Below the pieces are notes generated by a model. The model saw only the letters and a program-made list of their open reading frames with translations, did not search any database and had not been told where the DNA came from. 64,000 nucleotides of DNA from Woeseiaceae bacterium. GTDB taxonomy: Bacteria > Pseudomonadota > Gammaproteobacteria > Steroidobacterales > Woeseiaceae. Location: contig JASJBE010000011.1 of NCBI GenBank assembly GCA_030066655.1, positions 19,377-83,376 on the forward strand, given 5' to 3'. This document shows positions 11,406-49,108 of the stretch, piece by piece. The position numbers were made by a program, and so were the translations under genes. How positions within the stretch are numbered: the first letter of the stretch is position 1; each line of letters starts with the position of its first letter.

Positions 11406-11411
11406 AAGGTC

Positions 11412-14737: not shown

Positions 14738-14738
14738 A

Positions 14739-14768
14739 AAAGCCGCTGCCGGGGGAAGCAGCGGCTTT
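14739..14768 (-). terminator. Rho-independent terminator downstream of TonB receptor gene
   Basis: Inverted repeat aaagccgctgc-cggggga-gcagcggcttt; read on the minus strand it is followed by a T-run. Confidence 0.75.
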
Positions 14769-14788
14769 AATGTTACGACTTTATCGGC

Positions 14789-29278: not shown

Positions 29279-30085
29279 CTAATTTTTGCACGACCTTTCC
29301 TGTTGGCACTTCGGACACCAGTACGTGCCGCGGTGATGTCGGCCCAGCCGCTGGGTTCGAATGCGCGTTAGGCAGCGGTGGCAGGGCTTGCCGTGACGGT
29401 TGTAAACCCACAGGCGCCCGGCCTTGTCGTTCTCGAATCGGGTGACACGCTTCCCACCGCCCAGGTTCTTCTTCAGGAGATCCGCAGCGAGCTCGAAGCA
29501 TGCCTCCAACTCCTCGTCGGACACCTGGCCCAGGGTCAGCGCCGGCGACAGCGAGCGGATGAACAGCACCTCTGACTTGTAAACATTACCGATGCCACTC
29601 GCGACACGCTGATCGAGCAGCACGTCGGCCAGCAGCGTGTCGCCGTCGCAGATCTCACGTGCCCGCTCGACAATCCTTACCGGTTCGATGTCATCGGCAA
29701 TGAGGTCGGGACCTAAGCGAGTCTTTGTGATGGCGCGACGCACGCTCGGCGTCCTGATCAGCTCGACCTCCTTCGCGTTGAAACACACGTAGTCCTCGCC
29801 GTTGACCCTGAGTCTCAGCGAAGCGCGGTTGCGTGGCTTTTTCCATTCCTCACTCGGCGCATAGCGATGCCAGGAACCGTACATTCCGAGATGACTGCGT
29901 ATCGCGAGGCCGTTGTCGAGTTCGAAGAACAGGTGTTTGCCGCGCGCGACGACGCCCTGGATCCGCGCAGCGACGCAGCGACCGGCCGCGCTGGTATCGG
30001 CCATGCGTACTTCCTCGATAACGTGATCAGACAAGCGCGGCGCTAGGTAGTTGGCGACCTTGTGAATCGTGTCTCCCTCAGGCAC
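29279..30085 (-). CDS. Fpg/Nei family DNA glycosylase (endonuclease VIII-like)
   Basis: N-terminus (V/M)PEGDTIHKVANYL; DVLLDQRVASGIGNVYKSEVLF H2TH; C-terminal zinc finger CHRC...CPKC; GTG start. Confidence 0.93.
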   Translation of the reverse strand: MPEGDTIHKVANYLAPRLSDHVIEEVRMADTSAAGRCVAARIQGVVARGKHLFFELDNGLAIRSHLGMYGSWHRYAPSEEWKKPRNRASLRLRVNGEDYVCFNAKEVELIRTPSVRRAITKTRLGPDLIADDIEPVRIVERAREICDGDTLLADVLLDQRVASGIGNVYKSEVLFIRSLSPALTLGQVSDEELEACFELAADLLKKNLGGGKRVTRFENDKAGRLWVYNRHGKPCHRCLTRIRTQRLGRHHRGTYWCPKCQQERSCKN

Positions 30086-33000: not shown

Positions 33001-34505
33001 GTGACCAGTTCGGCGCCGCGACGGGGCGACAGCCTGTCCTCCGCACGATCCCAGGACAAGAGCGGTTTCAGGTCGGCGAAGTCCGTCGACGGGTAACGCC
33101 CGGACAGCATGTCGAGCACGGCCTCGAGCGCATCGCGCGACAGGTCCCGGTACGACCAGCAGCGTTTTACCAGCGCTTCGACCTCGTCGACGGTATGCGG
33201 CCGACTGCAGCACAGTGCGACGATCTGCTGGGACAGCACGTCGAGGACGTTGTTCGGTATCGCGATCGCGTCGATGTCGGCCGAGCACATGCGCTCGGCA
33301 ACCACGGCGGACTCGAGCAGGTCGCCGCGGAACTTCGGATAGATGCGACCCACACTGACTTCTTTGACGCCGTGACCTGCCCGGCCGACGCGCTGCAGAC
33401 CGCGAGCAACGGAGCCGGGCGATTCGACGAGCAGGACGAGGTCGACCGTGCCCATGTCGATGCCGAGCTCCAGTGAACTCGTCGCGACGATGCCGCGAAT
33501 GTCGCCGCGCTTCAGTCCCTCCTCGATCTCGGCGCGCTTCGAATGCGAGATGCTGCCGTGGTGCGCTCGCACGAGCTCTTCGTCCGCCAATTCATTCAGC
33601 TTGTGCGCCAGGCGCTCGCACAGCCCTCGGCTGTTGACGAAGATAATGGTCGACCGGTTGCCCTGGATGGCCTCGAGCAACTCCGGGTAAATCGACGGCC
33701 AGATGCCACGTTCGTTTTGCGGCCTTCCGATTTCGCGTGAATACAGTTCCCCGAGTATCGACCCACCCTCGCTTTCCTTTCGTTCAGGCTGAGGCGGATT
33801 CTGCATGTCCGGAACCGGCACCGTGACGGACAGGTCGATCAGCGGCTTCGCGGAGCAGTCGACGATGTCGACGTCCCGGTCGCCGCCGAGGAAACGGGCC
33901 ACGGACTCGAGGGGTCGCACCGTCGCCGACAGCCCGATGCGCTGCGGATCCGATTCGCAGATTGCCGCCAGCCGCTCGAGCGACAACGCCAGGTGCGTGC
34001 CGCGCTTGCTGGGCGCGACCGCGTGAATCTCATCGACGATGATCGTCTCGACGGTCTTGAGCGTTTCCGCCGCCTTCGAGCCCAGCATCAGGAACAGCGA
34101 CTCCGGCGTCGTGACCAGGATCTCGGACGGCTCCTTGATCATTCGTTGTCGTTCGCGCTGTGGCGTATCGCCAGTACGAATCGCGACGCTCGCCTCGCGG
34201 AAGTCGAGGCCTAAACGTTCCGCCGTGCGGGTGATGCCGACCAGCGGTGCTCGAAGGTTACGTTCGATGTCATAGACGAGGGCCTTCAGTGGCGAAATGT
34301 AGAGGACGCGTACCCCGCGGACTTTGTCGCTGCTGCCGATGCGATCGATGCCGGCGAGGAAGGCCGCGAGGGTTTTGCCGCTGCCGGTCGGCGCGACGAG
34401 CAGCGAATGGCGGCCGCGCGTGATCTTCTTCCAGCCACGCGACTGTACCGTCGTCGGGGCGTCGAAGTTATCGTTGAACCAAGCTTGGGTGGCCTCGTGA
34501 AACAC
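30078..34505 (-). CDS. lhr: Lhr-family large ATP-dependent DNA helicase
   Basis: APTGSGKTLAAFLAG Walker A, VDEIHAV DEIH box, helicase motifs, ~1475 aa with long Lhr-type C-terminus. Confidence 0.95.
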   Translation of the reverse strand: MFHEATQAWFNDNFDAPTTVQSRGWKKITRGRHSLLVAPTGSGKTLAAFLAGIDRIGSSDKVRGVRVLYISPLKALVYDIERNLRAPLVGITRTAERLGLDFREASVAIRTGDTPQRERQRMIKEPSEILVTTPESLFLMLGSKAAETLKTVETIIVDEIHAVAPSKRGTHLALSLERLAAICESDPQRIGLSATVRPLESVARFLGGDRDVDIVDCSAKPLIDLSVTVPVPDMQNPPQPERKESEGGSILGELYSREIGRPQNERGIWPSIYPELLEAIQGNRSTIIFVNSRGLCERLAHKLNELADEELVRAHHGSISHSKRAEIEEGLKRGDIRGIVATSSLELGIDMGTVDLVLLVESPGSVARGLQRVGRAGHGVKEVSVGRIYPKFRGDLLESAVVAERMCSADIDAIAIPNNVLDVLSQQIVALCCSRPHTVDEVEALVKRCWSYRDLSRDALEAVLDMLSGRYPSTDFADLKPLLSWDRAEDRLSPRRGAELVTRMNAGTIPDRGAFGVHLGEGGPRVGELDEEMVYETRPGDNVTLGASTWRVETISRDRVIVSPAPGEPGRLPFWRGDGPGRPIELGRAIGAFLRKVGRFGESKATDWLLEHTTLDAFAAQNLAAYIGEQRRETGTLPTDRAITIERFRDELGDWRICILTPFGARIHAPWAMALQRLLTSASGYEIQVMYTDDGIVLRFADTEELPDIDLLIPDPDELEELVTEQLASTSMFAGLFRENAVRSLLLRRRRPGQRSPLWAQRLKAQNLLATVQRYPNFPIVIETYRQALADVFDLPGLKQLLDDIRKRNIAVDNVETRSASPFSRSLVFAYVAAYLYEQDAPLAERKAQALTLDRALLGELLGQAELRDLIDADVLATLEDELQFIADERRATDVDDLHDVLRRLGDLNADELALRADGEFDAWLEALEVQRRAARVQIAGEERWIAAEDAGLYRDALGAVPPTGLPDSFLEKVDGGLTEIARRFARHRGPFLSRNLATRYDLRVAQVEPTLELLEQRGVLVRGEIRPGGAELDWCDAEVLRRLKRRNLAELRDEVAAVDASAYALFLPQWHGIGDGRRGPERLKEVVAQLQDYPMPWSLLSTSILPSRVADFRLDALDMMAASGEVVWVGRGAAGAKDGRISLYLREQVRDLLSVEDFETDDDCEQAILDRLATSGASFAIEIEDHVRDKVADASTREIRDALWRLVWAGQITNDTFAPLRSLSTSTPRRGRAGTVVAGGRWSLVESLAKRDLSPTQKAVARTRLLLDRYGIVSRRSAEGSGFGAIYKVLREMEEQGRVKRGYFVEGLDGAQFAYAGAIDRLRDCKDVSEDRESRLSADDVAVIPAMDPANPFGATLPWPMAANEERAKPRRVAGAWVLIAHGRPILYVGSRGRALITFPSTLNDEDAALQAAVEALRRVPMRGKRSALVIEKLDGEPVLSSPLAEVFKAAGFVADYRGLIDIQPFSAAGAGRA

Positions 34506-34508
34506 GGA

Positions 34509-36047
34509 CTAGCGCCTCGCCTCATCGAACAGCTGCCGCACCGTGTCGATCGTATCGGCCTCGGCGGCCGGCTTGTCGGATCGGTAACGCTTCACGCGGG
34601 CGAAGCGCAGCGCCATACCGACCGGGTATTGCTGGCTCTCCTGGATATCGTTGACGGCGATCTCGACGACCAGCTCGGGTCTGACGTGCACGACGTTGTC
34701 CTCGCGCCCAAGCTCTCGATCGAGCAGTGCCCTGGTCTGGTCAGCGAGCATCTTGTCGGTCAACCCCTTGAAGGTCTTGCCGAGCATAACGAAAGTGCCA
34801 TCGTCCGGGTTTCTCGCGCCGAGGTGCAGGTTCGACAGCCAGCCCTTGCGGCGGCCGCTGCCCCATTCTGCCGCGAGCACGACGAGATCCAGCGTGTGCG
34901 CCTGCTTGATCTTGAGCCAGTCCGAGCCTCGATTGCCGGCGGCGTACAGGCTGTCGGGCGCCTTCGCCATGATGCCTTCATGCCCCTGTTCCAGCGCTGC
35001 GGCGAGGAACCGATTCGCCTCCGCCACGCTGTCGGTCTTTAGCTGCGGCACCAGCGACGCTGCGTCCGCAATGCCGGCTAGAGCAGCGGAACGCTCATCG
35101 AAGCTCCGGTCGATCAACTCCCCACCGTCGAGATACAGGCAGTCGAAGTGCAGTCCGGACAGGGGCAACTTGCCGCGCATCTCGTCGACATTACTGCTGC
35201 GGCCGAAGCGGCGCATCGTGATCTGGAACGGCAGCGGCCGGTCGTCTTTGCCGAACGCGATCGCCTCGCCGTCGAGGATGAACTCGCGAGCCGGCATCGC
35301 CAGCGCCGCCTCGGTGATCTCCGGCAGCCGCGCCGTCACGTCATGCAGCTGGCGCGTAAAGATACGCACATCGGAGCCTGACCGATGGACCTGGATGCGA
35401 GCGCCGTCGAGCTTGTACTGCAGTGCGGCCTCGCCGAGCCCGTCCATCGCCTCTGCCAGGGTATCGCTGGGTTGCGCGAGCATCGGCCGGACCGGACTCA
35501 AGACGTGCAGGCGAAACGCCTGCAAGCCGGGCAGGCCGTCGACGAGCGCCGCCTCGGCGACCGGTGCCGGGTCGGCCGCGAGCATCACGGCGCGACGAAT
35601 CGCATCGGCCGGCAGCCCGGACGCCTCTGCGATACCTTCGATCAGCACGCCTTCGAGTGCGCCCTGTCGGACCTCGCCGAGGACGAGGCCTGCGAGAAAG
35701 CGCTGCTCATCGACGGTGACCTGCGACAGCAACTGGCCAAACGCGTCGGTCTTGGCCTGCTTCGATCCTGCGCCCTTCATGCTTGCTATGTCATCGAGTC
35801 GGCGATCGACGTCGCTCAAGGGTATGGCGCTGTTACCCGCCTCCGCGTTTTCCAGCGCGGCACTGACCATCGCCGGACCGAGCCCGATCCGCCCCTGCGG
35901 CATAACGCCGGCGAGGTAGTTAACGATCAGTCGCACCTCGCTGGTATCGGCCGCGCGCAGGCAGTCGCCTAAGAGGGCGCGCTTTTTCAGCCGGCTACGG
36001 GTTGCCGAGACCGCTGACGATACGTTGACGAGGTCGTTCAGATTCAT
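34509..36047 (-). CDS. ATP-dependent DNA ligase (archaeal/actinobacterial LigB type)
   Basis: Adenylation motif YKLDGARIQVHR; long N-terminal domain; SDWLKIKQAHTLDLVVLAAEWGSGRRKGWLSN. Confidence 0.92.
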   Translation of the reverse strand: MNLNDLVNVSSAVSATRSRLKKRALLGDCLRAADTSEVRLIVNYLAGVMPQGRIGLGPAMVSAALENAEAGNSAIPLSDVDRRLDDIASMKGAGSKQAKTDAFGQLLSQVTVDEQRFLAGLVLGEVRQGALEGVLIEGIAEASGLPADAIRRAVMLAADPAPVAEAALVDGLPGLQAFRLHVLSPVRPMLAQPSDTLAEAMDGLGEAALQYKLDGARIQVHRSGSDVRIFTRQLHDVTARLPEITEAALAMPAREFILDGEAIAFGKDDRPLPFQITMRRFGRSSNVDEMRGKLPLSGLHFDCLYLDGGELIDRSFDERSAALAGIADAASLVPQLKTDSVAEANRFLAAALEQGHEGIMAKAPDSLYAAGNRGSDWLKIKQAHTLDLVVLAAEWGSGRRKGWLSNLHLGARNPDDGTFVMLGKTFKGLTDKMLADQTRALLDRELGREDNVVHVRPELVVEIAVNDIQESQQYPVGMALRFARVKRYRSDKPAAEADTIDTVRQLFDEARR

Positions 36048-36170
36048 AGCGATGGTGGATCGGGCCGCCGGGTTAATCGGGCCGGGCAGGCATTGTAGCG
36101 CGACTGGACCGATGCCGTCGGTCTGTCCGCACGGGGCGCACACCGACGAGACTTGCCGTCGCTCGGCGAG

Positions 36171-36776
36171 TCAGCGCAGCACGGTTTCTACGAAGTAGTT
36201 GAGATCCCGGCGCGCTGCAAGTTGAGCATCCCAGGGCTCAAAGCGGCGTGAATCGGCACCCCCCGCCTCGATTGAGAGCTGAGTTGATGTCGCGATCATG
36301 CGCAACACGTCGGGGGTGACCTCGTAGTAGGCCTCAACGGCGCTGGCAACGGGGCGGTGGAACGGTGGCCGGGTGAGGCCGGCCGAGTTCGAGGCCCAGC
36401 CGGAAAGGCTCAGCGACAAGGGCTCTCCGTCAGCAAACAACACTACGGATTCCAGCTGGTCACGATGACTCGCCGCGCTGTGTGTGGGCGACGTGCCCCA
36501 GCTGCCCAGCCAGACAAAGTAGCGATAGTGTCCGCTGCGATTGACCTCGAAGACGCCGAGTTGCATCAGTTGCCGGGCGTGCGCGCCATAGGCTGGCGTC
36601 GCATGTACGAACTGCATCGGTCTCGCAACGTTCGTCGTGGTGACGCCGGTATCCGGGTCGAGATGTTCAACAATGTTCGTGGGAGCGGTTGCGCAACCCG
36701 ACTGCAATGCCACCACCGTCAGGATTGCTGAAATCCGACGGACTCGCGTTGATAGCGGCTTCCCTGTCATGCTCAA
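36171..36776 (-). CDS. Putative lipoprotein of unknown function
   Basis: LQSGC lipobox; ATGA overlap with upstream gene of the cytochrome operon. Confidence 0.75.
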   Translation of the reverse strand: MSMTGKPLSTRVRRISAILTVVALQSGCATAPTNIVEHLDPDTGVTTTNVARPMQFVHATPAYGAHARQLMQLGVFEVNRSGHYRYFVWLGSWGTSPTHSAASHRDQLESVVLFADGEPLSLSLSGWASNSAGLTRPPFHRPVASAVEAYYEVTPDVLRMIATSTQLSIEAGGADSRRFEPWDAQLAARRDLNYFVETVLR

Positions 36777-39217
36777 AAGAACACCTGGTAGCCAACGCTA
36801 AGGAAGTATGACTCGCGGTCCATGACCTGGGTTGCCATGTCACGCTGTGAATACTGCTTTCCCATTTCCAACTCGAGCCTGAACTTTCGACTGCCGCGGT
36901 ATTGCATACGGAACCCGGGCGTCAGAACCCATTCGTCGCTGCCGTCTCTCTTCATCTCTCGGTAATCGACACGCAGTCGTGGGTTGATGCGCCAGGCGGA
37001 ACCAAGCGGAATGCGGACGTCCAGATTGGTGCCGGACACAGACGCGCTTTCGGATTGCGAGCGCCGGAAGCCGAGCATATACAGATCGCCCTCGCGGAAC
37101 AGGCTCGTACCGACAACGTTGGTCGAGTAGTAAGCGTAGTCGCTCGCCGGCAGCTCATCGACACCACCCGACGCCGGCGCAGCCTCGACGCTGGACCAGT
37201 TGGCATCGGCGTTGACCTGCCACATCGGCGACAACGCGTGCGATACACCGACCGTATACGCCGTGGTCAGCGGTGACCGATCGAGACTCAGCGACCGGAT
37301 CTCCGACTCCGTCAGCAACACCTGGAGCTCCGAGAATGAGTCGACGGGTTGGCCAATCATCGCATTGCCGGCGCTCAGGAACGGGCTGTGCCGTAGATCA
37401 ATCGACGCATGAACCGACGAACGCTCGAAGAACCGCCAGCTGCCCTGCAGGAATGCGCTCCCCAGTTCGTCGTATTCCGTGTCGTAGTCGATATGCCCCC
37501 ACAGACTCGCCGTTGATCCGAAATAACGAAATTCGGTACCCACGGCCTGGCGGTCCAACATGCCGCTGATGTCCTGTCGCAGGATAAACGCACCGAACTC
37601 AAGGTTTTCCAGGACCGGTCCGAAATCGACACTGCCACCAACGAAACTGCGCTCCGAATCAACGCCGTCAGCGGACGTGGCAACCGGCAACCCCGCGACG
37701 GCGTTCACGACAAAGAGTTCCGAAGCCTGGTACGCCATGTGCAAGCCGTCGAAACGACCGAGGATGCCGCCATCGTGACGTGACTGACGACCGAGCCGCC
37801 CACGCAAACCAGTCTTTGCGTCGTCGATATCGATGTACGCGTAAGACACGCGGAGTTCGTCCGCCGACGCCTCCGCCCCTTCGAGAAAGTCGTTTCGGTA
37901 GCCCGCCGAAAGCCGGCTGCTGAAGTCAAAGCGTTTCCCACGTCGCCGCGCATCCACATTAATATCGGAATACAACGCCGACTGGCTTACGACCTCGTCT
38001 TCATCGTTGAGCTGGTTCGCATCTCTGCGGTAGTACTGTGACGCATAGATCTGCGTGCGCCAGGCGCTGGCACCCTTTGCCGCCTGCTGGTGTTTCGTCG
38101 CCGCTGCTGCCGCGCTGCTATCGCCGGCCCCGCGCCTGTCGACGGCCAGCAGTGTGGCCAGCCTCTGCCGAATACGCGGAGCGCTCTCGCTATCCGGATA
38201 AAGCGCAAGATAACGCTCGTACTCTGCCTTCGCATGCGCCTTCTGTCCGTTCTTCTCCCTGGCGAGCGCAAGATACTCCTGCGCCTCCTCATAGCGATCA
38301 TGGCCCCTGACCCGCAGCACCTTGGTATAGATCTGCACGGCCTGGCTCAGTTCGTGCGCGATCATGCTCTTGCGCGCGGTCGCCATAAGTTCATCGACAC
38401 GAGCGAGACCGATTGCAGGCAGTTCAGTATCCGTCGATGCTGCGAATTGCGGCGCAATGGTGGTCGCGGGCTCCGTACTGCGCCGCGAACGCTGTATCCA
38501 GGCATTCGGGTAACTCCCCTTCAACCTGGCGAGAAGTGCTTCGGCATCCTTTATCGTTTCGAACTCGCCGACACGCAGTCGGTACCAGACTTCCTCAGCA
38601 ATTCGCACCTCGGTCTCGAAAATTCTGGCACCTGATAGAAGGTCGAATACCGGCCATTCAGACGCGTCATGCCGGCGTCGGCTCGATGACAAGTTGACCA
38701 CGTACTTCTCCGGCTTTGAATCAGTGGTCGTGACGCGGCTCGCCGGCGCGCGGGCCGCCTGGTTTTCGAAGGTCCGCTCGCGTGCATCGCGGACGCGTAT
38801 AATCAACTCGTCAGAGACGCCGGCGTCGATTACGTCAAAAATCACCGGCTCCTCGAACACCAGCGTCATCTCCTGACTGCCGGCGTGCATGCCGTTGTAA
38901 TCGATATCCATCAGCTTGGCTGCGCTTGCGTTGGACGGCCGAATCAGGGTCTTGGTTCGCATCGACGCGGGCGATATGCCGTCGCATAGAGACGTCGCCT
39001 GAATCTGGATACGCAGGCGGTCACCGCTGACTCGTGGCACATACTCCAGCACTTCAAAGCGGCATGCCAGTCGGACACGGATTTCCGTCGCGCCATTCGC
39101 AGAGCTGATGCTCGCATCGATGACAGGACTCGCGGCCGGCACGGATGAGGTCATCAGAAGCAAGCCGGCGATAGCCATCGCGATCGAGGCCCAGTGCGAC
39201 TTGCGATCAAAAGCCAT
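36773..39217 (-). CDS. SPOR/TPR-containing protein with C-terminal outer-membrane beta-barrel
   Basis: Signal peptide; SPOR-like YRLRVGEFETIKDAEALLARLKGSYPNAWIQ; TPR-like segment; ~400-aa alternating beta region ending in ...YQVFF with C-terminal Phe. Confidence 0.75.
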   Translation of the reverse strand: MAFDRKSHWASIAMAIAGLLLMTSSVPAASPVIDASISSANGATEIRVRLACRFEVLEYVPRVSGDRLRIQIQATSLCDGISPASMRTKTLIRPSNASAAKLMDIDYNGMHAGSQEMTLVFEEPVIFDVIDAGVSDELIIRVRDARERTFENQAARAPASRVTTTDSKPEKYVVNLSSSRRRHDASEWPVFDLLSGARIFETEVRIAEEVWYRLRVGEFETIKDAEALLARLKGSYPNAWIQRSRRSTEPATTIAPQFAASTDTELPAIGLARVDELMATARKSMIAHELSQAVQIYTKVLRVRGHDRYEEAQEYLALAREKNGQKAHAKAEYERYLALYPDSESAPRIRQRLATLLAVDRRGAGDSSAAAAATKHQQAAKGASAWRTQIYASQYYRRDANQLNDEDEVVSQSALYSDINVDARRRGKRFDFSSRLSAGYRNDFLEGAEASADELRVSYAYIDIDDAKTGLRGRLGRQSRHDGGILGRFDGLHMAYQASELFVVNAVAGLPVATSADGVDSERSFVGGSVDFGPVLENLEFGAFILRQDISGMLDRQAVGTEFRYFGSTASLWGHIDYDTEYDELGSAFLQGSWRFFERSSVHASIDLRHSPFLSAGNAMIGQPVDSFSELQVLLTESEIRSLSLDRSPLTTAYTVGVSHALSPMWQVNADANWSSVEAAPASGGVDELPASDYAYYSTNVVGTSLFREGDLYMLGFRRSQSESASVSGTNLDVRIPLGSAWRINPRLRVDYREMKRDGSDEWVLTPGFRMQYRGSRKFRLELEMGKQYSQRDMATQVMDRESYFLSVGYQVFF

Positions 39218-41354
39218 TGTTCGAAATCCGATGTTCGGGACCAGGTCGACGCTCTTTGATTGTGGTCAGGCTGCTATCCGTATAGACATGGCAGGCTCCG
39301 GTGCAGTCGCGGAGCTCGCTGGCCGTGTAAGTTCGATCCGGATTCTCGTGCTTCTTATGAGGACCTGACTTGTAGTCGTTCGAGTGACAGGCCGCGCAAT
39401 CCGGCTGGAACGCCGGGAACGGGTAGACCACGGTCGGGTTGTTGTTCTGATGGCAGGCCGTGCACTGCAGGTTGCCGGCATGATTGAGCGGCTCGTAAGA
39501 CAAGGTCGTGTGAGCAAAGTCGGACGGCGACCAGCTGACCGTGTTGTGGCAGCTGTCGCACTCCGCCGGTGTCAGGAAATGTCCGGCATTCATGCCCGTC
39601 GCGGTGCTGCCGTTGTGGCAATTCGAACAGGATCCAAGCACCTGGGTGTGATCGACCGTCGTGACCGGCGACCAGGCGATGGTCGAATGGCAATCCTCGC
39701 AGACGTTCGTCGTCTGCACGTGGTTCGAGTGCTTGCCGGTCGCATCGGTGCCGTTGTGACAGCTGAAGCAATTATCCGCAACCGTCGTATGGTCGAAGAA
39801 GGCCGGCGTCCAGGCCACCGTCGTGTGGCAGTCGTCGCAGTTGTTGCCGCTGGTGATATGTGTCGGGTGCTTACCGGTGGCGGTCACCCCATCGTGGCAG
39901 GATCCGCACGTGCCAAGTACCTGCGTGTGGTCCACGGTCGTCGCGGGCGTCCACGCGTTCACGTTGTGGCAATCTTCGCAGACGTTGGTCGACTGGATAT
40001 GGGCCGGGTGCTTGCCGGTCGCATCAACGCCGTTGTGGCAATTGCTGCAGTTACCGGAAATGTTGACGTGATCGAAGTTCGCCGGCGTCCACGCGACGGT
40101 CGTGTGGCAGTCGTCGCAATTGTCGCCGCTGGTGATATGGGCCGGGTGTTTGCCAGTCGCTACCGTACCATTGTGGCAGCTACCGCAGGTGCCGATGACG
40201 TCGTTGTGGTCGACAGCTGCCGGGGTCCAGGTCAGCGTCGTATGACAACTGTCACAGGTCTCACTGCTCAGGATATGCGTTGCATCCTTACCGACGGCCG
40301 TCGTGCCATCGTGGCAGGAACCGCAGGTACCGAGAACCTGCGTGTGGTCGACCATTAGCGCAGGTGCCCAGACGTTCGTCGTGTGGCAGTCCTCGCAGGT
40401 GTCAGTGGTCTGTATGTGGCCGGCGTTCTTGCCGGTCGCATCGACGCCGTTGTGGCAGCTACCGCAGTTGCTCGCAATATTCTGATGGTCGAAGTTAGCG
40501 GGTAGCCATGCGGCGGTCGAGTGGCAGTCCTCGCAGTTATTGCCGCTCGAAATGTGGCCGGCGTTCTTGCCGGTAGCCGTGGACCCGTTGTGGCAGTTGC
40601 CGCAGCCATCAACGATGCCCGAGTGGTCGAAGAAGGCGGGCGCCCATGCAGTCGTCGTGTGGCAGTCGTCGCAGGTATCGCTGCTCTGAATGTGATTGAC
40701 CGTTTTGCCCGTCGCGACCAGTCCATCGTGACAACTGCCGCAAGTGCCGAGTACTTGTGAATGATCGACACGCGTAGCTGGCGACCAAAGCGTCGTCGAA
40801 TGGCAGTCTTCACAGACATTGGTCGTCTGCACGTGCGTAACGTTCTTGCCGGTCGCGGTATTGCCGTTGTGGCAGCTGGCGCAGTTGCCGAATACGTTGG
40901 CATGATCGAAGACGGCCGGTACCCAGGCCGCGGAGTTGTGGCAGTCGTCACACTGGTCTCCTGACACAAGATGGTTCGGGCTTTTTCCGGTACTGCGAAT
41001 TCCGTTGTGGCAGGTGACGCAGGATCCGGACACGGCGCTATGATCCATGTACGGGACGATGCTCCACGATGACGTGATGTGACAGTCGGAGCATTCGCCG
41101 CTGGTCAGTACGTGACCGGGCGGCTTCGCCGATGCACGCACGGTTCCGCCGTCGGAGTGGCAGCTTTCGCAACTTGAGCGAGTTGCCGTGAAGTTCGCGT
41201 TTGCATGACAACCCTCGCAACTGACGCTCGAGTGCGCACCGTCGAGCGCGAAGCCGGTGCTCAGGTGATCGAAGTCCGGGTTCTGTGCATAGGCCGCGCC
41301 GCCGATGACCGCCCACAGCATCACGATACGCAACAGGCCACGACGCAACTTCAT
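39207..41354 (-). CDS. Large multiheme c-type cytochrome, about 27 CxxCH motifs
   Basis: Signal peptide MKLRRGLLRIVMLWAVIGGAAYAQ; 27 CxxCH motifs counted by eye plus one CxxxCH (CTGACH). Confidence 0.95.
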   Translation of the reverse strand: MKLRRGLLRIVMLWAVIGGAAYAQNPDFDHLSTGFALDGAHSSVSCEGCHANANFTATRSSCESCHSDGGTVRASAKPPGHVLTSGECSDCHITSSWSIVPYMDHSAVSGSCVTCHNGIRSTGKSPNHLVSGDQCDDCHNSAAWVPAVFDHANVFGNCASCHNGNTATGKNVTHVQTTNVCEDCHSTTLWSPATRVDHSQVLGTCGSCHDGLVATGKTVNHIQSSDTCDDCHTTTAWAPAFFDHSGIVDGCGNCHNGSTATGKNAGHISSGNNCEDCHSTAAWLPANFDHQNIASNCGSCHNGVDATGKNAGHIQTTDTCEDCHTTNVWAPALMVDHTQVLGTCGSCHDGTTAVGKDATHILSSETCDSCHTTLTWTPAAVDHNDVIGTCGSCHNGTVATGKHPAHITSGDNCDDCHTTVAWTPANFDHVNISGNCSNCHNGVDATGKHPAHIQSTNVCEDCHNVNAWTPATTVDHTQVLGTCGSCHDGVTATGKHPTHITSGNNCDDCHTTVAWTPAFFDHTTVADNCFSCHNGTDATGKHSNHVQTTNVCEDCHSTIAWSPVTTVDHTQVLGSCSNCHNGSTATGMNAGHFLTPAECDSCHNTVSWSPSDFAHTTLSYEPLNHAGNLQCTACHQNNNPTVVYPFPAFQPDCAACHSNDYKSGPHKKHENPDRTYTASELRDCTGACHVYTDSSLTTIKERRPGPEHRISNNGF
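39560..40990 (-). repeat. ~46-47-aa (138-141 bp) tandem diheme repeats inside the multiheme cytochrome gene, ~10 units
   Basis: Units of form CGSCHxGxxATGKxxxHIxSxxxCDDCHTTxAWTPAxFDHxxVxGx; visible nucleotide similarity, e.g. around 39806 and 40081. Confidence 0.85.
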
Positions 41355-42919
41355 TGCAGTGACCTCACGTCCTTGAAGCTCGACACGTCGTGGCAGCGAC
41401 CGCAGTCGAAGCCAAACTCTCCGTCATGGATATCGTCGTTTCTGTGGCAGTCTCCGCACCGGTGTGCCTCGTGTTTCAGGCTCGAAAGTGGCTGGCGATG
41501 ACAATCTGCACACGACACGTCCGTGTGTGCGCCGCGCAGTTCGTACTCGGTCTGCGTGTTGTGGTCGAACAACCACAGGTCCCACGCAACCGGGTTGTGG
41601 CAGTAGCCGCAGTTGTCGTCGAACGAATCACCGTGCACGTCGTCTTCGAGATGGCAGCTGCCGCACGCGGAGTCTGTCTCAGCGAATGCGTGGGTCTCGT
41701 GGCAGGCCTCGCATTCCGCGTTCGCGTGTTCGCCTAGCAGCGGGAACTTCGTAAGGCTGTGATCGAAGAACGGCGCCGGATCCCACGCCCCCTGCTCGTG
41801 ACAGTCCGCGCATTGCTCGCCGAGCGAGCCCTTGTGCGGGTCATCGTCGAGGTGGCAGGAATTGCACTGATCGCCAGGCGACTGCTCGAAGACCGGCTCG
41901 ACATGGCAGTCGACGCAGCCGACCTCGACGTGTGCACCGAGCAGCAGGAAGTTGGTGTCGCGATCGTGATCGAAGCGAATGTGGTCCCAGCGCTCGCTTG
42001 AGTGACAGCCATTGCAGTCATCGCCATTGTGGCCCTTGTGCTCGTCGTCCTCGCGGTGGCAGCTCACGCAACCGGTCTGCAAGTTATCACCGAACGGCTC
42101 ATCGCTGTGGCAGTCGCCACAGACCAGTTCAGCGTGACGCCCGATCAGGTCGAAGGTCGTGTCACGTGCATGGTCGAAGCTGGTGTCGTCCCATCCCAGC
42201 GGGTTGTGACAGTTGTCGCACTGCTCGCCGCTGCGGCCCTCGTGAACGTCGTTATCCGCGTGACAGCCGAAACAGGTCGTCGGCGTGTTCTGGTGCGTCT
42301 CGTCGGCGTGGCAGTCGAGACATTCAGCGTCGAGGTGCTTGCCGATCAAAGAATAGCCGGTGACCTCGTGATCGAACTCGACATCCTCCCACCCGGCCGG
42401 TACGTGGCAACTCGCGCAGTCTTCGCCGAGAAACCCACGATGTACGTCGTCTTCCGCGTGGCAATCGAAGCACTCGGCGGGCGCATCGCGATGCTTTTCA
42501 GCAGCGGCGTGGCAGGCGCCGCATTCGGCTTCTCCGTGCTTGCCCGACAACTCGAAGTCGGTGAAAGCGTGATCGAAGCTCACCGGATCGAGCCCCACGA
42601 TGTCGGCCTTGCGGCCTTCATGGTCCGTGTGACAGACACTGCACTGCTCGTCGCCGACGGTTGGCGACTTGCCGTGAAAACCCGCGGCAGTCGAGAGGTC
42701 AGCTGCAACGTCTTCGTGGCAGTCCAGGCAGAGCTGGCGTTGAGCCGCTCGATCGAAGCGCTTGTGGCAGGCATTGCACTCGGTCTCGATCTCGACATGC
42801 GCTTTGGCGACATCGCCCGGCATAACGAGGGACTCGATCGACTGCGCCAAAACGGCGCCTGGAGCAGCCATGACAATCACCGCAAACAACCTGGATATGT
42901 GGCGTCGGTACTCATTCAT
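41351..42919 (-). CDS. Multiheme c-type cytochrome, about 21 CxxCH motifs
   Basis: Signal peptide MNEYRRHISRLFAVIVMAAPGAVLAQ; 21 CxxCH motifs counted by eye; start moved from 43024. Confidence 0.94.
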   Translation of the reverse strand: MNEYRRHISRLFAVIVMAAPGAVLAQSIESLVMPGDVAKAHVEIETECNACHKRFDRAAQRQLCLDCHEDVAADLSTAAGFHGKSPTVGDEQCSVCHTDHEGRKADIVGLDPVSFDHAFTDFELSGKHGEAECGACHAAAEKHRDAPAECFDCHAEDDVHRGFLGEDCASCHVPAGWEDVEFDHEVTGYSLIGKHLDAECLDCHADETHQNTPTTCFGCHADNDVHEGRSGEQCDNCHNPLGWDDTSFDHARDTTFDLIGRHAELVCGDCHSDEPFGDNLQTGCVSCHREDDEHKGHNGDDCNGCHSSERWDHIRFDHDRDTNFLLLGAHVEVGCVDCHVEPVFEQSPGDQCNSCHLDDDPHKGSLGEQCADCHEQGAWDPAPFFDHSLTKFPLLGEHANAECEACHETHAFAETDSACGSCHLEDDVHGDSFDDNCGYCHNPVAWDLWLFDHNTQTEYELRGAHTDVSCADCHRQPLSSLKHEAHRCGDCHRNDDIHDGEFGFDCGRCHDVSSFKDVRSLQ

Positions 42920-42942
42920 CTCGTGGCGGCGTTGGTTCTTAT

Positions 42943-43839
42943 TCAATACATGTGCACGGCGAGCACATGGACGAGGGCTGAGATCACCATCATGTAGAAA
43001 AGCGGTAGATGCAGGATGTGCCAAAGCGCGAACAGCCGTTCGAACAGCGTGAACTGGGCGATGCGGCGAACGAGGCGGATATACCGGCCGATGTAGCGAT
43101 AGCTCGTCCTGCGCAGCTTCGCCAGGTCGGCGGCGATTGTGTGGGACTCGGCCGCACGAGCTTTGAGCTCACGGCGCGCAGTCCGTCTGAGCTGCAACCA
43201 GGTTGCGTAGCTCCGCAGCGTCCAGACGAGGCTGCCGCGGACGGACAGGGAACCGCGCAGCGCACAACCCTGGATATCGGCAGAAACCGCCTCCAGGCGC
43301 TGCGTCAGCTCGGGCATCAACACTGCTAAGCCATGACTCTGCTCGACCGAGTCGGCAAGCTCTTTCTGCAGAGCGCGAAGACTAGTCTTCTCTCCATACA
43401 GACCGCGGTGGATGCCAGCGTAAATGTAACGACCGATCACGCCACTTGCGGCAACGAGCAGCATGCAGAACAGCGCAAAACGACTATTGAACGAGCCGAG
43501 CTGGAAGTTGCTGTGGTAAAGCACGAGTACAGGGGCAATGACACCCAGTACCATGTGTGTGCGAAACCAGCCCGGAATCGCTCCAAGGAACTTCAACGCG
43601 CGGTAGCGTTTACGTAGCGGGTAGAGCAACAGCAGGAGCATCATGCTGCCGCCGACGATTCCCAGCCAGTAGCCCAGACCGGCCTCCGCCGTAATCCAAT
43701 CTCGATCGCGCAGCAGCCAACCGACGCCGAGAGCAAGAATTGTGATCGAGTAGCCGTAAAAGGCGTTGCTCTTTCGTTCGCGCCGTGGCTTCGCGACGCT
43801 GCCGGGAACGGCACTGGAATCGACTACAACCTCATTCAT
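42943..43839 (-). CDS. Integral membrane protein, possible b-type haem membrane anchor
   Basis: TM helices with His in HMVLGVIAPVLVLYHSNF and WHILHLPLFYMMVISALVHVLAVHMY; operon with multiheme cytochromes. Confidence 0.7.
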   Translation of the reverse strand: MNEVVVDSSAVPGSVAKPRRERKSNAFYGYSITILALGVGWLLRDRDWITAEAGLGYWLGIVGGSMMLLLLLYPLRKRYRALKFLGAIPGWFRTHMVLGVIAPVLVLYHSNFQLGSFNSRFALFCMLLVAASGVIGRYIYAGIHRGLYGEKTSLRALQKELADSVEQSHGLAVLMPELTQRLEAVSADIQGCALRGSLSVRGSLVWTLRSYATWLQLRRTARRELKARAAESHTIAADLAKLRRTSYRYIGRYIRLVRRIAQFTLFERLFALWHILHLPLFYMMVISALVHVLAVHMY

Positions 43840-44698
43840 TGGTCGATGTTCCTACTCGGTTGGTCTCGTCGAGAACGAGCTGCACAACGCCATCCATCAT
43901 TGCTGAGACTGGTTCACTCTGTGTTTCGAAAGCCCCGACAGCATCGGTTGCAAGTCCGGATCGCGATAGACGTGCACTGACGATGAGCGTGTCGTAGTCA
44001 GCGATAGAGGTGCCGGCCAGCAGGGCGTCACGATCAGACAATGAAAAGCTGAACGGCAGATCGACGGCGGGCCGTCGGATTGCCGCAACCGGCATTCGCT
44101 GATCACTCGATGCTTTGGCGAAAATGAAGATCGTGTCCTTGGCGCTGACACTGGCGGCAAGACCGTCACTGAGCGCAATGTGCCCCCGAATTGCAGGACC
44201 GTCGCCAGCAGGCACAGTCGCCGCCGATTTCCCGCCAACGTTCCCGACTGATTCCATCAACGCATCGGACTCAAAGCTGTTGTAAGTCATTCCGAGCGCC
44301 TTTGCTTTCGCGTATGCGTCTCTCGCTTTGTCAGGCTGCCCGAGGTGTCGATAGGACTTCGCAAGCAGGAGCCAGCTGCCGGCGTCGTCTGGCTCGCGTT
44401 CGAGTCGCGCCTCGAGCCCCGCCAGCAGGCTGTTGACAGAAGCGACCGATTTTTTGGACGACGTTTGTTCCTTCGCGAGATAGTTCGGGTAGAGCTTTTG
44501 GTGAGGCGGTTGCGCGGTCATCGCCTCAGGCGAACCGAGCAGCGCGTATCCGCCGACGGAGACAACCGGGATGATCACCATGGGCAACGTAGAGCCCGAC
44601 AGCCGGCGAACCTTCAACAGATCTTTTTGCGGCAAGAACACGAAGCCAATAGCCACCGTGGCCATAACTATCGCGGTCGCGAGAAAAACAGAACTCAT
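43832..44698 (-). CDS. CcmI/CycH-like c-type cytochrome biogenesis protein (TPR)
   Basis: LEREPDDAGSWLLLAKSYRHLGQPDKARDAYAKA TPR; C-terminal GHIALSDGLAASVSAKDTIFIFAKA...PVAAIRRPAVDLPFSFSLSD as in CcmI C-terminal domain. Confidence 0.8.
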   Translation of the reverse strand: MSSVFLATAIVMATVAIGFVFLPQKDLLKVRRLSGSTLPMVIIPVVSVGGYALLGSPEAMTAQPPHQKLYPNYLAKEQTSSKKSVASVNSLLAGLEARLEREPDDAGSWLLLAKSYRHLGQPDKARDAYAKAKALGMTYNSFESDALMESVGNVGGKSAATVPAGDGPAIRGHIALSDGLAASVSAKDTIFIFAKASSDQRMPVAAIRRPAVDLPFSFSLSDRDALLAGTSIADYDTLIVSARLSRSGLATDAVGAFETQSEPVSAMMDGVVQLVLDETNRVGTSTNE

Positions 44699-44863
44699 GC
44701 ACTATCCCCTTGCATGGTGAGCGGCCTGAAATCCCCTGCAGGCCTTCGCAAAAAAGCAGCACTTCTTATAGATCTCTACACGCGGCTCGATGCGAAACGG
44801 TTTCACAGAAACGGGCAATTGCGCGGAAAAACACCTTTCTGTCGTCAAAGTGCGACGGTTCTG

Positions 44864-44888
44864 CGAGCGAATGAGAATCATTCGCTCG
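44864..44888. promoter_or_regulatory. 25-bp perfect palindrome with Fur-box-like core in divergent promoter region
   Basis: CGAGCGAATGA-GAA-TCATTCGCTCG: 11-bp perfect arms; core AATGAGAATCATT resembles Fur box. Confidence 0.6.
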
Positions 44889-45000
44889 ATTCGGCGTTGC
44901 TTCAGCGCCTGGTGGTGAAAATGTCCAGACTCGAGATCGGAGGTGCAAACTGCGACGTTTTTCATGAAGCTCTCGACGAAGAGCGACTAAGCTTTGCGCC

Positions 45001-46314
45001 ATGAGTCTCGGCTATCTCAATCTTCTCTATATTGCGCCAGCGCTGGTGATCCTCGTCTGGTATCTGTGGCGCCACGTGCAACGCGAGCGCGCGAGCTTCG
45101 AAGCGCTGCGTATCGCCACCGAGGCCGGCATGCTGGAGCCACCGACACTGCACCCGGAGATCAATCTCACGACCTGTATCGGATGCGGATCCTGCGTGGC
45201 GGCCTGTCCGGAGCAGGACAGTCATACCGTGCTCGGCATGATCGGTAAGAAGGCGCGCCTCGTTGGACCAACGAATTGCATCGGACACGGCGCGTGCAAA
45301 ACGGTGTGTCCGGTCAACGCTATTACGCTCGTTTTCGGCACTGCGACGCGCGGTATCGACATACCGCTCGTCAAACCGAATTTCGAAACCAACATGGACG
45401 GCCTCTTTATCGCAGGCGAACTCGGCGGCATGGGGTTGATCCGCAATGCCGTCGAGCAGGGACGGCAGGCGATGGAGTCGATCGTCGAGTACACGAAGTC
45501 GCCGCACCGCTGCGACATCGACGTGTTGATCGTGGGCGCGGGCCCGGCCGGTTTTAGCGCGACACTGGCGGCGAAAGCCGCCGGCTTGAAAAATGTGACG
45601 GTAGAGCAGGAAGAACTCGGCGGCACCGTCGCTCACTTCCCGCGGCGCAAGCTCGTCATGACGCAGCCGGCCGAGCTGCCGATCGTGGGCAAGATGAAGT
45701 TCAGGGAGGTGCAGAAGGAGGAGTTGATTGAGTTCTGGCAGTCCGTGGAGAAGAAAACCCAGATCTCCATTCAGTACAACGAGCGCGTCGACACTATCGA
45801 GGCCGAAGGAGACGGTTACCGCGTTACAACCAGCAAAAACAACTACCTGGCGCGCAGCGTTTTGCTCGCGATTGGTCGTCGCGGTACGCCGCGCCAACTC
45901 GGCGTGCCCGGCGAAGACCTCGGCAAGGTAACGTACCGCCTCATCGACGCGGAGCAGTACCGGGGCATGCACATCCTCGTTGTCGGTGGTGGCGACAGCG
46001 CGCTCGAGGCAGCCGCAAGCATCGCGGAAGAGTCGGACACGACGGTCACTTTGTCATACCGGTCCGGAGCTTTTAGCCGTGCGAAGCCGAAGAATCGCGA
46101 CAGGGTCTCGGGGCTCGAGGCGTCGGGTAGAATTCGCGTGCTGTTCAATTCCAACGTCACACAGATCGATGAGGACAGCGTCACGATTGCGCGGGAGGAT
46201 GGCGAGGAGCGCATTGCGAACGACGCGGTTGTCATCTCGGCCGGCGGCATTCTCCCGAGCGGCTTCCTCCGGACGATCGGCATCAACGTCGAAACCAAGT
46301 GGGGCACCGAGTAA
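45001..46314 (+). CDS. NAD(P)-binding flavoprotein oxidoreductase with N-terminal TM and ferredoxin-like 4Fe-4S domain
   Basis: CIGCGSCVAACPEQ and CIGHGACKTVCPVNAI; FAD motif VDVLIVGAGPAGFSATLAAKAAG; NAD(P) motif ILVVGGGDSALEAAASIAE. Confidence 0.88.
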   Translation: MSLGYLNLLYIAPALVILVWYLWRHVQRERASFEALRIATEAGMLEPPTLHPEINLTTCIGCGSCVAACPEQDSHTVLGMIGKKARLVGPTNCIGHGACKTVCPVNAITLVFGTATRGIDIPLVKPNFETNMDGLFIAGELGGMGLIRNAVEQGRQAMESIVEYTKSPHRCDIDVLIVGAGPAGFSATLAAKAAGLKNVTVEQEELGGTVAHFPRRKLVMTQPAELPIVGKMKFREVQKEELIEFWQSVEKKTQISIQYNERVDTIEAEGDGYRVTTSKNNYLARSVLLAIGRRGTPRQLGVPGEDLGKVTYRLIDAEQYRGMHILVVGGGDSALEAAASIAEESDTTVTLSYRSGAFSRAKPKNRDRVSGLEASGRIRVLFNSNVTQIDEDSVTIAREDGEERIANDAVVISAGGILPSGFLRTIGINVETKWGTE

Positions 46315-46391: not shown

Positions 46392-48647
46392 CTAGCTCAG
46401 CCGAATTGGCAGATCCCTGACTCGCTTGCCCGTCGCCGCAAAGACGGCATTGCCGATTGCCGGTGCGACGGCGATCAACGGCGGCTCGCCGAGACCCATC
46501 GGATGCTCACTGCTCTCCATCAGCTTGAGGTCGAGTTCGGGCACATCCGCCATACGAAGCGGCGTGTAGGCATCGAGGTTCCGGACTTTGACGTGACCGT
46601 TCTCGAAACTCGTGCCTTCGTGCAGCGCGATGCTGACGCCCCACAGCGTGGCGCCCTCCACCTGCGCCATCGCACCTTCCGGGTGCACGGCCGTGCCGCA
46701 GTCGATCGTCTGCCAGATCTTTTTGACTTTAACTTTGGCGCCGTCGACGGCGACGTGAGCAACGCAGGCCGTCCACGTCGGCATTGCGCGTTCCTGTCCG
46801 TGAGACACGGCAACACCGAGGGCCTCACCGTCGGGCAGGCTGCGGCCCCAGCCGGAGCGGTCGCGGACATCGGCCAGGACGGCGGCCAGCCGATTGGCAC
46901 CTCCCGTCTGCATCGGTGTGGCGCCCGCATTTCTTCCCTCGCCGTCGAGCAACGACAGGCGAAACTCGATTGGGTCCTTACCCATCTTCGCGGCGATCTC
47001 ATCCATGAAGCTCTCGACGCCCCAGGCAATCCAGCCGGGTCCGACGGCACGCCACCAGCCCGGCAGGAAGCTGTCCTGCGCAAGCTTGTTGTTGATCGCG
47101 CGGACGCGTTGATTCGGGATGGAATACCAGTGATCGGAACCGTTGATCGAGAAGCCGTCGAACTTGCCGTTGCCGTCGACGCCGTCGCCCAAGAACCCGG
47201 GCGCCATTGCCAGTGTCGGCCAGCCCGCGGCCGCGGCGTGCTCGATCGCCGTCAGGTTGCCGTCGGCATCGAACGCCGCATCGAGTTTCGCAACCGACGC
47301 GGAGCGTACGCAGTCAAACATGCTGTCCTCGTCGCGCTGCATGATGAGCTTGACCGGCTTGCCGAGCTGGCGCGCCGCGTGTGCGGCCGGGATCATCTGG
47401 TCGCCGAACAGGCGTCGACCGAAGCCGCCGCCCAGGTAGTAGGTGTGCAGGACGATGTCGGACTCTTCCATCTCCAGCGACTGCGCCAGCACCGGGATGA
47501 TCAGCGACTGCCACTGGTTGCCGGCGTGGACGTGGCATTTGCCGTCTTTGAATTCGACCAGCGCGTTCTGCGGCTCGAGCGTGAAGTGCAGCGCCGTGCT
47601 CGTCCGATAGGTCGACGCCATCGTATCGGCGGCGGCGTCCATGGCCGACGAGACGTCACCTTCGTTGACGAACAACGTGCCATTCGTCTTGTCGTCGACG
47701 AGCCTCTGGCCCTCGGCCTGGATATCCGCCTCGCTGACGTTCGCCGTCTTGCCGGCGTCCCAGTCAACCTTGACCGCGTCGCTCGCCTTCATCGCAGCCG
47801 GGAAGCTGTCGGCGATGACCAGGGCCATGCCCTGCACGAAGCCGCTGGGGTCGTCGATCGTGATCGTCTGCTGGTAGCCCGCGATGTCCTTCGCAGCCGA
47901 GTCGTCGATGGACGTGACGGTGCTGCCGTAGCGCGTCGGCGCCATGATCGGGTGCGCGTAGACCATGCCGGGCAGCTCGGTGTCCAGGCCGTAGACGGCC
48001 TCGCCCCTGGATTTTTCCGGCACGTCGAGTGCGCGGGTGCTCTCGCCGATCAGCTTGCGATCCGCCGGGGCCTTGATCGGCATCGCGGCGAGTTCCTCAT
48101 CGGTGAAGCTGCGGCTGACGTCGCCGTTCGACACGATCTCGGCGAAACTCATCGACTTGCCGCCGCCGGACACGGTGCTGTTCTCGGCCGTCAGCTCGGA
48201 GGCATCGACGTCCATTAATGCAGCCGCCGCATCGATCAGGATCATGCGCCCCGCGGCGCCCGCCTGCGACAGCATCGCGAAACTCGTGACGACCGACCAC
48301 GAGCCGCCGGTCACCATGTAACCCCACTTCGGATCCGAATCGACGTGCGCGAGGCTCACACGATCCCAGTCTGCGCCGAGTTCGTCGGCGACGATGCGTG
48401 CGAGCGCCGTGCCGACGTGCTGACCCATTTCGGCCTTCGTGATGTTGACGACGATGTCGCCCTCATTGCTGACCTCGAACCAGACGGCCGGCGAGAACGA
48501 CTTGCTGCCGCCCGTTGCAGCAACCTGCTCAACGGCGGTCTCGCGGCTGCATCCGGGCAGCACCGTGCCGAGCCCCATGACGACACCGGTGCCGACGGAA
48601 CCTGCCAAAAAGCTCCTGCGACTGACTTTCTGCTTGCCGAGCTTCAT
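46392..48647 (-). CDS. Molybdopterin-binding subunit, xanthine dehydrogenase family (isoquinoline 1-oxidoreductase beta-like)
   Basis: Tat-like leader KVSRRSFLAGSVGTGVVMG; YYLGGGFGRRLFGDQMI; GSWSVVTSFAMLSQAGAAGR. Confidence 0.93.
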   Translation of the reverse strand: MKLGKQKVSRRSFLAGSVGTGVVMGLGTVLPGCSRETAVEQVAATGGSKSFSPAVWFEVSNEGDIVVNITKAEMGQHVGTALARIVADELGADWDRVSLAHVDSDPKWGYMVTGGSWSVVTSFAMLSQAGAAGRMILIDAAAALMDVDASELTAENSTVSGGGKSMSFAEIVSNGDVSRSFTDEELAAMPIKAPADRKLIGESTRALDVPEKSRGEAVYGLDTELPGMVYAHPIMAPTRYGSTVTSIDDSAAKDIAGYQQTITIDDPSGFVQGMALVIADSFPAAMKASDAVKVDWDAGKTANVSEADIQAEGQRLVDDKTNGTLFVNEGDVSSAMDAAADTMASTYRTSTALHFTLEPQNALVEFKDGKCHVHAGNQWQSLIIPVLAQSLEMEESDIVLHTYYLGGGFGRRLFGDQMIPAAHAARQLGKPVKLIMQRDEDSMFDCVRSASVAKLDAAFDADGNLTAIEHAAAAGWPTLAMAPGFLGDGVDGNGKFDGFSINGSDHWYSIPNQRVRAINNKLAQDSFLPGWWRAVGPGWIAWGVESFMDEIAAKMGKDPIEFRLSLLDGEGRNAGATPMQTGGANRLAAVLADVRDRSGWGRSLPDGEALGVAVSHGQERAMPTWTACVAHVAVDGAKVKVKKIWQTIDCGTAVHPEGAMAQVEGATLWGVSIALHEGTSFENGHVKVRNLDAYTPLRMADVPELDLKLMESSEHPMGLGEPPLIAVAPAIGNAVFAATGKRVRDLPIRLS

Positions 48648-49108
48648 GAGGACACCTCCCCGCCGCCGGCCGCGGCCTTAATCGCCTTGTGAATCCGGAC
48701 GTAGGACATGCAGCGGCACAGATTGCCCGTCATGTACTCCGTAATTTCTTCATCGGTTGGGTTGGGGTTCTGCCGGAGCAGGTTCTCCGCCGTCATGATC
48801 TGCCCGGACTGGCAGTAGCCGCACTGCGGCACCTGCTCGTCGACCCAGGCCTTCTTCAGCGCGTCGCCTTGCGGGCTATCGAGGCCTTCGATCGTCGTCA
48901 CGTTGAGACCCGCCACCGCGCTAAGCGGCGTCTTGCAGGAACGCAGCGCGGTGCCCTCGAGATGCACCGTGCAGGCGCCGCACTGGGCAATACCGCAACC
49001 AAACTTGGTCCCCTTGAGCTTCAGCTCGTCGCGGATCACCCATAAGAGGGGGGTGTCCTCCGGGCTGTCTGACTGAACAGACTGGCCGTTGAGTTTAAAT
49101 TCGATCAT
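48644..49108 (-). CDS. (2Fe-2S)-binding subunit (isoquinoline 1-oxidoreductase alpha-like)
   Basis: GCGIAQCGACTVHLEG and CGYCQSGQIMTAENLL...MTGNLCRCMSY. Confidence 0.96.
   Translation of the reverse strand: MIEFKLNGQSVQSDSPEDTPLLWVIRDELKLKGTKFGCGIAQCGACTVHLEGTALRSCKTPLSAVAGLNVTTIEGLDSPQGDALKKAWVDEQVPQCGYCQSGQIMTAENLLRQNPNPTDEEITEYMTGNLCRCMSYVRIHKAIKAAAGGGEVSS

Follow-up and report, generated by a model that had tools for sequence, protein, structure and literature searches.

A PCC3-type porin–cytochrome cluster in a Woeseiaceae genome and the flavoprotein that accompanies its inner-membrane protein

The stretch of DNA analysed here (the window) comprises 64,000 nucleotides of contig JASJBE010000011.1, positions 19,377 to 83,376 of the forward strand, from the Woeseiaceae bacterium assembly GCA_030066655.1, which measures 3.6 Mb in 167 contigs and is 91% complete. 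In window coordinates, six co-oriented minus-strand genes (44698->36171) and one divergent plus-strand gene (45001..46314) form a cluster that, judged by its genes and motifs, is a member of PCC3, a kind of porin–cytochrome system already named from genomes yet uncharacterised, with extra genes attached. One link within it is new and strongly supported: the PCC3 inner-membrane protein (IMP) has a circularly permuted flavoprotein as its near-universal partner, outside the four-gene definition of the system.

A sequence-only reading had described six minus-strand genes and a divergent one, and all seven open reading frames were found where it placed them and on the same strands. The protein types it assigned were recovered as well, five by Pfam, the membrane protein by its motifs and the lipoprotein by its lipobox. 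The Pfam matches are Cytochrome_C7 for the two cytochromes (4.7e-42 and 5.9e-22), SPOR (2.7e-6), Ig_CycH (3.3e-23), Pyr_redox_3 (1.6e-44) and Fer4_10 (3.4e-11); the same search gave no match for the IMP or the lipoprotein.

The inner-membrane protein and its flavoprotein partner

The IMP (42943..43839, minus strand; 298 aa) was identified from its motifs, hydrophobic segments and a homologue alignment as a protein of five transmembrane helices, matching the five hydrophobic segments counted, with four His ligands. Its motifs, WFRTH-x13-H at residue 91, SGVIG at 132 and WHILH-x13-H at 273, are the exact WX3HX13H, SGXXG and WX3HX13H signature that He et al. give for PCC3. What had been read simply as a His-containing membrane protein thus carries its four histidines in PCC3 motifs, and all four are invariant among 21 homologues; His95/His109 and His277/His291 are predicted to bind two b hemes. 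The spacing of these heme ligands equals that in NADPH oxidase and ferric reductase, while neither a profile search of the PDB nor the Pfam search found a sequence relative, and a search of plasmids returned one weak match only.

The iron–sulfur (Fe-S) flavoprotein (labelled 'FNR'; 45001..46314, plus strand; 437 aa) consists, by Pfam and an AlphaFold2 model, of an N-terminal membrane helix, a ferredoxin-like domain and a circularly permuted FAD/NAD(P) domain. Motif counts and invariant columns place the Fe-S domain at residues 52-110 (45154..45330), where CxxCxxCxxxCP is followed by CxxHxxCxxxCP. The first motif is kept in 64 of 66 homologues and the second, including its His, in 65 of 66; this residue, His96, stands where a Cys would be expected. 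The N-terminus is hydrophobic in 60 of the 66, with a mean Lys plus Arg count of 0.4 before it and 5.1 after, and given this asymmetry the Fe-S/flavin part should be cytoplasmic.

The pieces of the FAD domain stand in the reverse order to that in YpdA and thioredoxin reductase. In the permutation alignments the C-terminal piece, residues 113-165 (45337..45495), is displaced ahead of the N-terminal piece, which together with the NAD(P) domain occupies residues 172-437 (45514..46311) according to Pfam and the alignments. When the usual order is restored, the alignment extends into the C-terminal region of YpdA and the score rises from 104.9 to 112 bits; a relative of normal order, at locus L070, matches the flavoprotein in crossing pieces (E=1e-37 and 2e-6). 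On these alignments, the flavin domain is circularly permuted. The model is confident, with a pLDDT of 87, and its best structural matches are YpdA and FNR-type reductases. The redox-active, catalytic Cys of YpdA and thioredoxin reductase was sought and is absent, GAGPAG replacing GGGPCG, and in the homologue alignment the Fe-S motifs hold the only invariant Cys. Therefore, the flavoprotein should pass electrons and not reduce disulfides, and the missing Cys rules out a disulfide reductase of the thioredoxin reductase/YpdA type. Arg354 is invariant and lies close to where the phosphate of NADPH is bound in thioredoxin reductases, a position that suggests the use of NADPH.

When the IMP alignment was scanned against one genome for each species, 79 loci were found, a sample biased towards relatives of the window. 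They are mostly from Gammaproteobacteria, with some from Alphaproteobacteria and a few under other phylum labels, which may be binning errors. Conservation of the cluster as a unit, which the sequence-only reading had proposed as a check, is borne out: the gene order recurs in related loci, with the porin in 69 of 72 testable loci and the flavoprotein in 87 of 91. Since the cluster is kept in about 80 other genomes, the arrangement is not due to chance.

The pairing of IMP and flavoprotein holds at two taxonomic depths. At the level of the order (296 genomes), 77 genomes have both genes, 7 the IMP only, 3 the flavoprotein only and 209 neither; 68 flavoprotein copies lie <=6 kb from the IMP, every one (68/68) on the opposite strand. 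In an even sampling of the class Gammaproteobacteria (370 genomes), both genes occur in 38, the IMP alone in 1, the flavoprotein alone in 3 and neither in 328, and 34 of the 35 copies found <=6 kb from the IMP are on the opposite strand. Several of the exceptions are contig ends. This co-occurrence supports the earlier decision to count the divergent ferredoxin-domain oxidoreductase into the cluster. The published descriptions of PCC3 examined, in the case of He et al. the main text, give four genes and no flavoprotein. In 41 loci (L105, L113, L114, L126, L129 and others) the flavoprotein gene has as its neighbour a gene for a protein of about 675 aa that resembles Sel1/ankyrin repeats; it is absent at the window locus, and the loci that have it fall outside the window's closest relatives.

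Cytochromes, barrel and accessory genes

The first cytochrome (41351..42919, minus strand) is a predicted periplasmic protein of 522 aa in which the 21 CxxCH motifs previously reported were counted again; it is built of seven three-heme modules. ATG 42919 is most likely its start, in preference to TTG 43024, and gives an AxA-type signal peptide. The gene spacing proposed earlier stands for the placing of the seven reading frames, but with the start so moved the 21-heme gene no longer overlaps that of the IMP. The second cytochrome (39207..41354, minus strand; 715 aa), predicted to be extracellular, was expected to have about 27 CxxCH motifs; motif counting and repeat analysis give exactly 27, together with one CX3CH that brings the total to 28 sites. 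Its heme repeat is about 23 aa per heme, and its composition is rich in T (12%), S (9%), A (9%) and G (8%). Both cytochromes have about 25 residues per heme (25.5 in the 28-heme protein), and because histidines outside CxxCH outnumber the hemes in each, bis-His ligation is possible.

Across loci, the first cytochrome after the IMP has exactly 21 CxxCH in 82 of 93, and in the second the count varies between 5 and 55 (median 31). A constant inner and a variable second cytochrome agree with a wire that crosses the periplasm at a fixed length and continues into an outer wire extended by repeats, an idea put forward for Gallionellaceae (PMC10734462). In Woeseiaceae the heme counts of the second cytochrome (L085, L087, L088 and others) are nearly always odd (19, 27, 29 ... 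53), as if its repeat changed by two hemes at once.

The 814-aa barrel protein (36773..39217, minus strand) ends in Phe and was delimited by Pfam, a homologue alignment and an AlphaFold2 model built with 44 homologues (mean pLDDT 86). Behind a predicted signal peptide the model places a β-domain at residues 32-144 (38786..39124), which is AMIN-like by appearance only, being drawn from modelled secondary structure with no Pfam match. A SPOR region (residues 171-244, 38486..38707) and TPR helices (residues 271-380, 38078..38407) follow, both placed by Pfam, relatives and the model. The barrel domain itself (residues 386-814, 36776..38062) has 22 β-strands at residues 386-813, mostly with pLDDT >90, so that the barrel fold suggested beforehand for this protein, and set as a check, is what the model returns. 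Foldseek finds many porin barrels (best E=2e-10), with no MtrB among the top 50. The arrangement of the domains relative to one another is uncertain, the whole-chain pTM being 0.57. The fusion of the barrel to SPOR and TPR, treated earlier as an oddity, is the norm within this PCC3 branch, since of 44 relatives 34 have SPOR and as many as 33 match TPR models; the published PCC3 accounts examined make no mention of it.

At the upstream end of the minus-strand genes lies a CcmI/CycH-like protein (43832..44698; 288 aa; Ig_CycH), present in 61 of 87 testable loci and likely to be a helper in cytochrome c maturation. At the downstream end is a 201-aa lipoprotein (36171..36776, minus strand; alternative ATG start at 36770), found in 38 of 60 testable loci. 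Its lipobox Cys is conserved among relatives in the homologue alignment, in agreement with the earlier call.

The divergent promoter region contains a 25-bp palindrome with perfect 11-bp arms, CGAGCGAATGA-GAA-TCATTCGCTCG (44864..44888); among inverted repeats with a short gap, it is the longest of the window. Its core fits a Fur box at 14 of 19 positions, and close relatives (L073-L075) have similar sites, with weak conservation in relatives overall. Fur regulation as a general feature of PCC3 was rejected, the mean best score over 68 loci being 11.4 against 11.0 in shuffled sequences; the Fur-box-like palindrome may be taken as a lead for the nearest relatives only.

Around the cluster, a molybdenum hydroxylase pair of the xanthine dehydrogenase/aldehyde oxidase superfamily adjoins the flavoprotein gene (46392-49108, minus strand), with a large subunit bearing a twin-arginine-like leader and a 2Fe-2S small subunit. 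Directly downstream (30078-36143, minus strand) a 1475-aa helicase, Lhr-like by appearance, lies next to an ATP-dependent DNA ligase. Farther away (9921-17800, minus strand), a tryptophan halogenase (PF04820, E=2.4e-189) is found near a TonB-dependent receptor (14789-17800).

Relation to named porin–cytochrome systems

He et al. proposed PCC3 in 2017, in Sideroxydans, Leptothrix and others (PMC5566968). They define it by a porin, two very large cytochromes, one extracellular (median 34 hemes) and one periplasmic (median 21), and an IMP of ~300 aa with five transmembrane helices, SGXXG in the fourth and WX3HX13H in the third and fifth; the extracellular cytochrome has a low ratio of amino acids to hemes, repeats and a richness in T, S, A and G. 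The window cluster shares with this definition a predicted 22-strand porin, a 21-heme periplasmic cytochrome with a signal peptide, a 28-site second cytochrome with repeats and the same bias towards T, S, A and G, whose extracellular site is predicted, and a 298-aa five-helix IMP with all three motifs. It differs in adding the divergent Fe-S flavoprotein, the CcmI-like protein and the lipoprotein to the published four genes. The trans-envelope conduit of the sequence-only reading is still the best reading, but its architecture had already been named (PMC5566968), and the heme count that seemed unusually high is normal for PCC3 by the medians just given.

That reading had also held that the cluster does not match MtrCAB or the Geobacter OmbB-OmaB-OmcB system, and in this it was right. 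The layout of a barrel with multiheme cytochromes through the outer membrane is common to MtrCAB, MtoAB and PioAB, but those systems have a decaheme MtrA/MtoA and a PF11854 barrel, as against 21 and 28 hemes here. A search of the 814-aa protein with PF11854 (MtrB/PioB) gave no match, whereas the true MtrB of the same genome scores E=1e-140; a miscalled MtrCAB is thus ruled out. OmbB-OmaB-OmcB shares the general porin–cytochrome layout and is set apart by its heme counts, 8 in the periplasmic and 12 in the outer cytochrome; to our knowledge it has no IMP/flavoprotein pair.

The host genome does possess a separate MtrCAB, about 47 kb from the PCC3 cluster. This MtrC-MtrA-MtrB set (L157, G000:C6:10432-15767) ends some 4 kb and starts some 9 kb before the window begins. 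It encodes a 10-heme OmcA/MtrC-like protein, a decaheme protein and a PF11854 barrel, and cytochromes of 2 and 11 hemes come after it. In the relatives G021, G218, G224 and G280, MtrB lies on the same contig as PCC3 at a distance of about 20 kb, and this proximity suggests an electron-transfer island. Given a real MtrCAB in the host genome, the mtrCAB published for this group (PMC12175321) is not simply a misread PCC3.

In a second Woeseiaceae cluster (L070:6749-19233 and L071:3361-15832) a distant IMP is likewise encoded together with a flavoprotein related to that of the window and with multiheme cytochromes, which speaks for the redox module proposed below. The flavoprotein there, of 795-833 aa, has the normal domain order, two cyclic nucleotide (cNMP)-binding domains and several Fe-S motifs, and the cytochromes include two 10-heme proteins, one FHA-like at its N-terminus and the other of ~1250 aa. 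Like the PCC4 of He et al. 2017, this second cluster resembles the window cluster in a related five-helix IMP with an adjoining Fe-S/flavin redox gene; the normal flavoprotein order, the cNMP domains and the 10-heme cytochromes distinguish it. It is possibly PCC4-like.

A proposed path from NAD(P)H to the outside and its alternatives

We consider it reasonably probable that the locus encodes a PCC3-type conduit together with an inner-membrane redox module, made of the flavoprotein and the IMP, giving a path from NAD(P)H to an acceptor outside the cell. NAD(P)H in the cytoplasm would reduce the FAD of the flavoprotein, and its Fe-S clusters would pass electrons on to the b-heme pair of the IMP and so across the inner membrane. 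The 21-heme cytochrome would carry them over the periplasm, the barrel would be the passage through the outer membrane, and the 28-heme cytochrome would hand them to an acceptor such as another cell, humics, Fe(III) or Mn(IV). Of the remaining parts, the CcmI-like protein would aid cytochrome maturation, SPOR and TPR would keep the barrel close to the peptidoglycan and to partner proteins, and a possible role of the lipoprotein is to anchor the outer cytochrome. We infer that these proteins assemble as one complex, with NAD(P)H as the cytoplasmic partner and electrons flowing outward.

He et al. liken the IMP to the membrane domain of ferric reductase and NADPH oxidase, with two b hemes on HX13H helices (PMC5566968). 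Because a cytoplasmic FAD/Fe-S/NAD(P) protein is its near-constant partner, a split NADPH-oxidase-like enzyme is the simpler reading. The module would work like those enzymes, pairing two b hemes on HX13H helices with a cytoplasmic FAD/NAD(P)H part, but here the parts are two separate proteins, Fe-S clusters are added, and the flavin fold is of the thioredoxin reductase/YpdA type. The likeness is one of heme-ligand spacing; the IMP has no sequence match to solved proteins and membership in the family is not claimed. It is tempting to go further and propose, tentatively, that PCC3 at large is an NAD(P)H-driven exporter, in which such a split enzyme bypasses the quinone pool and feeds the 21-heme and the repeat-extended outer wires. 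We know of no described porin–cytochrome system fed by an NAD(P)H flavoprotein and a di-heme-b IMP.

Several points weigh against an NAD(P)H-fed, outward path. The Fisher P for the co-occurrence of the two genes, <1e-40, ignores ancestry, so that shared descent is not accounted for in it. In G113, G121 and G200 the IMP is present with the flavoprotein undetectable, and in G137 the flavoprotein is on another contig than the IMP; given the three genomes without the gene, the flavoprotein is not strictly obligatory and can be lost or replaced. Because the 28-heme cytochrome carries an ordinary signal peptide and lacks a lipobox, its surface location is a prediction. The published PCC3 accounts examined report no demonstrated activity of any PCC3 protein. 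He et al. propose that the IMP exchanges electrons with quinones (PMC5566968), and one of the PCC3 copies of Sideroxydans CL21 has an IMP that goes up with the ability to oxidise Fe(II) (PMC12442390); this favours inward flow.

The last two points belong to the inward conduit as originally modelled by He et al. in 2017, in which Fe(II) or another outside donor feeds the IMP and then the quinone pool, with the flavoprotein an accessory that makes NAD(P)H. The finding of PCC3 in iron oxidisers agrees with it too. Nevertheless, we regard it as unlikely for this locus: both PCC3 clusters of S. lithotrophicus ES-1 fall on Fe(II) (PMC8788666), a search of the host genome for RuBisCO gave no match, and, by established bioenergetics, inward transfer through a simple di-heme IMP to NAD(P)+ would oppose both redox and membrane potential. 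These three lines, together with the MtrCAB of the host, are why we lean towards outward flow.

Two further explanations were weighed. That the flavoprotein and the CcmI-like protein supply reductant for heme attachment might be argued from the adjacency of their genes in this clade and from a fold closest to thioredoxin reductase and YpdA; it is made highly improbable by the absence of the redox Cys of those enzymes, with no invariant Cys beyond the Fe-S motifs, and by the many loci that have the flavoprotein but not the CcmI-like gene (87/91 vs 61/87). Alternatively, the giant cytochromes might mainly store electrons or buffer the redox state within the envelope and form no conduit to the outside; a function as a capacitor was proposed for PCC3 earlier (PMC10734462), and the heme numbers do go well beyond what bridging needs. 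We give this little credence, since a periplasmic store has no need of the barrel found in 69 of 72 testable loci, and an inner cytochrome held at 21 hemes beside a second one varying from 5 to 55 fits a fixed span with a free outer end.

PCC3 is widespread in Proteobacteria and its cytochromes are among the most heme-rich proteins known. The flavoprotein partner offers a specific candidate, open to experiment, for what ties PCC3 to metabolism, and it can serve as a marker for PCC3 loci on fragmented contigs, separating PCC3 from MtrCAB. Woeseiaceae are among the commonest bacteria of marine sediments, and the cluster thus bears on the question of who trades electrons with the minerals of the sea floor.

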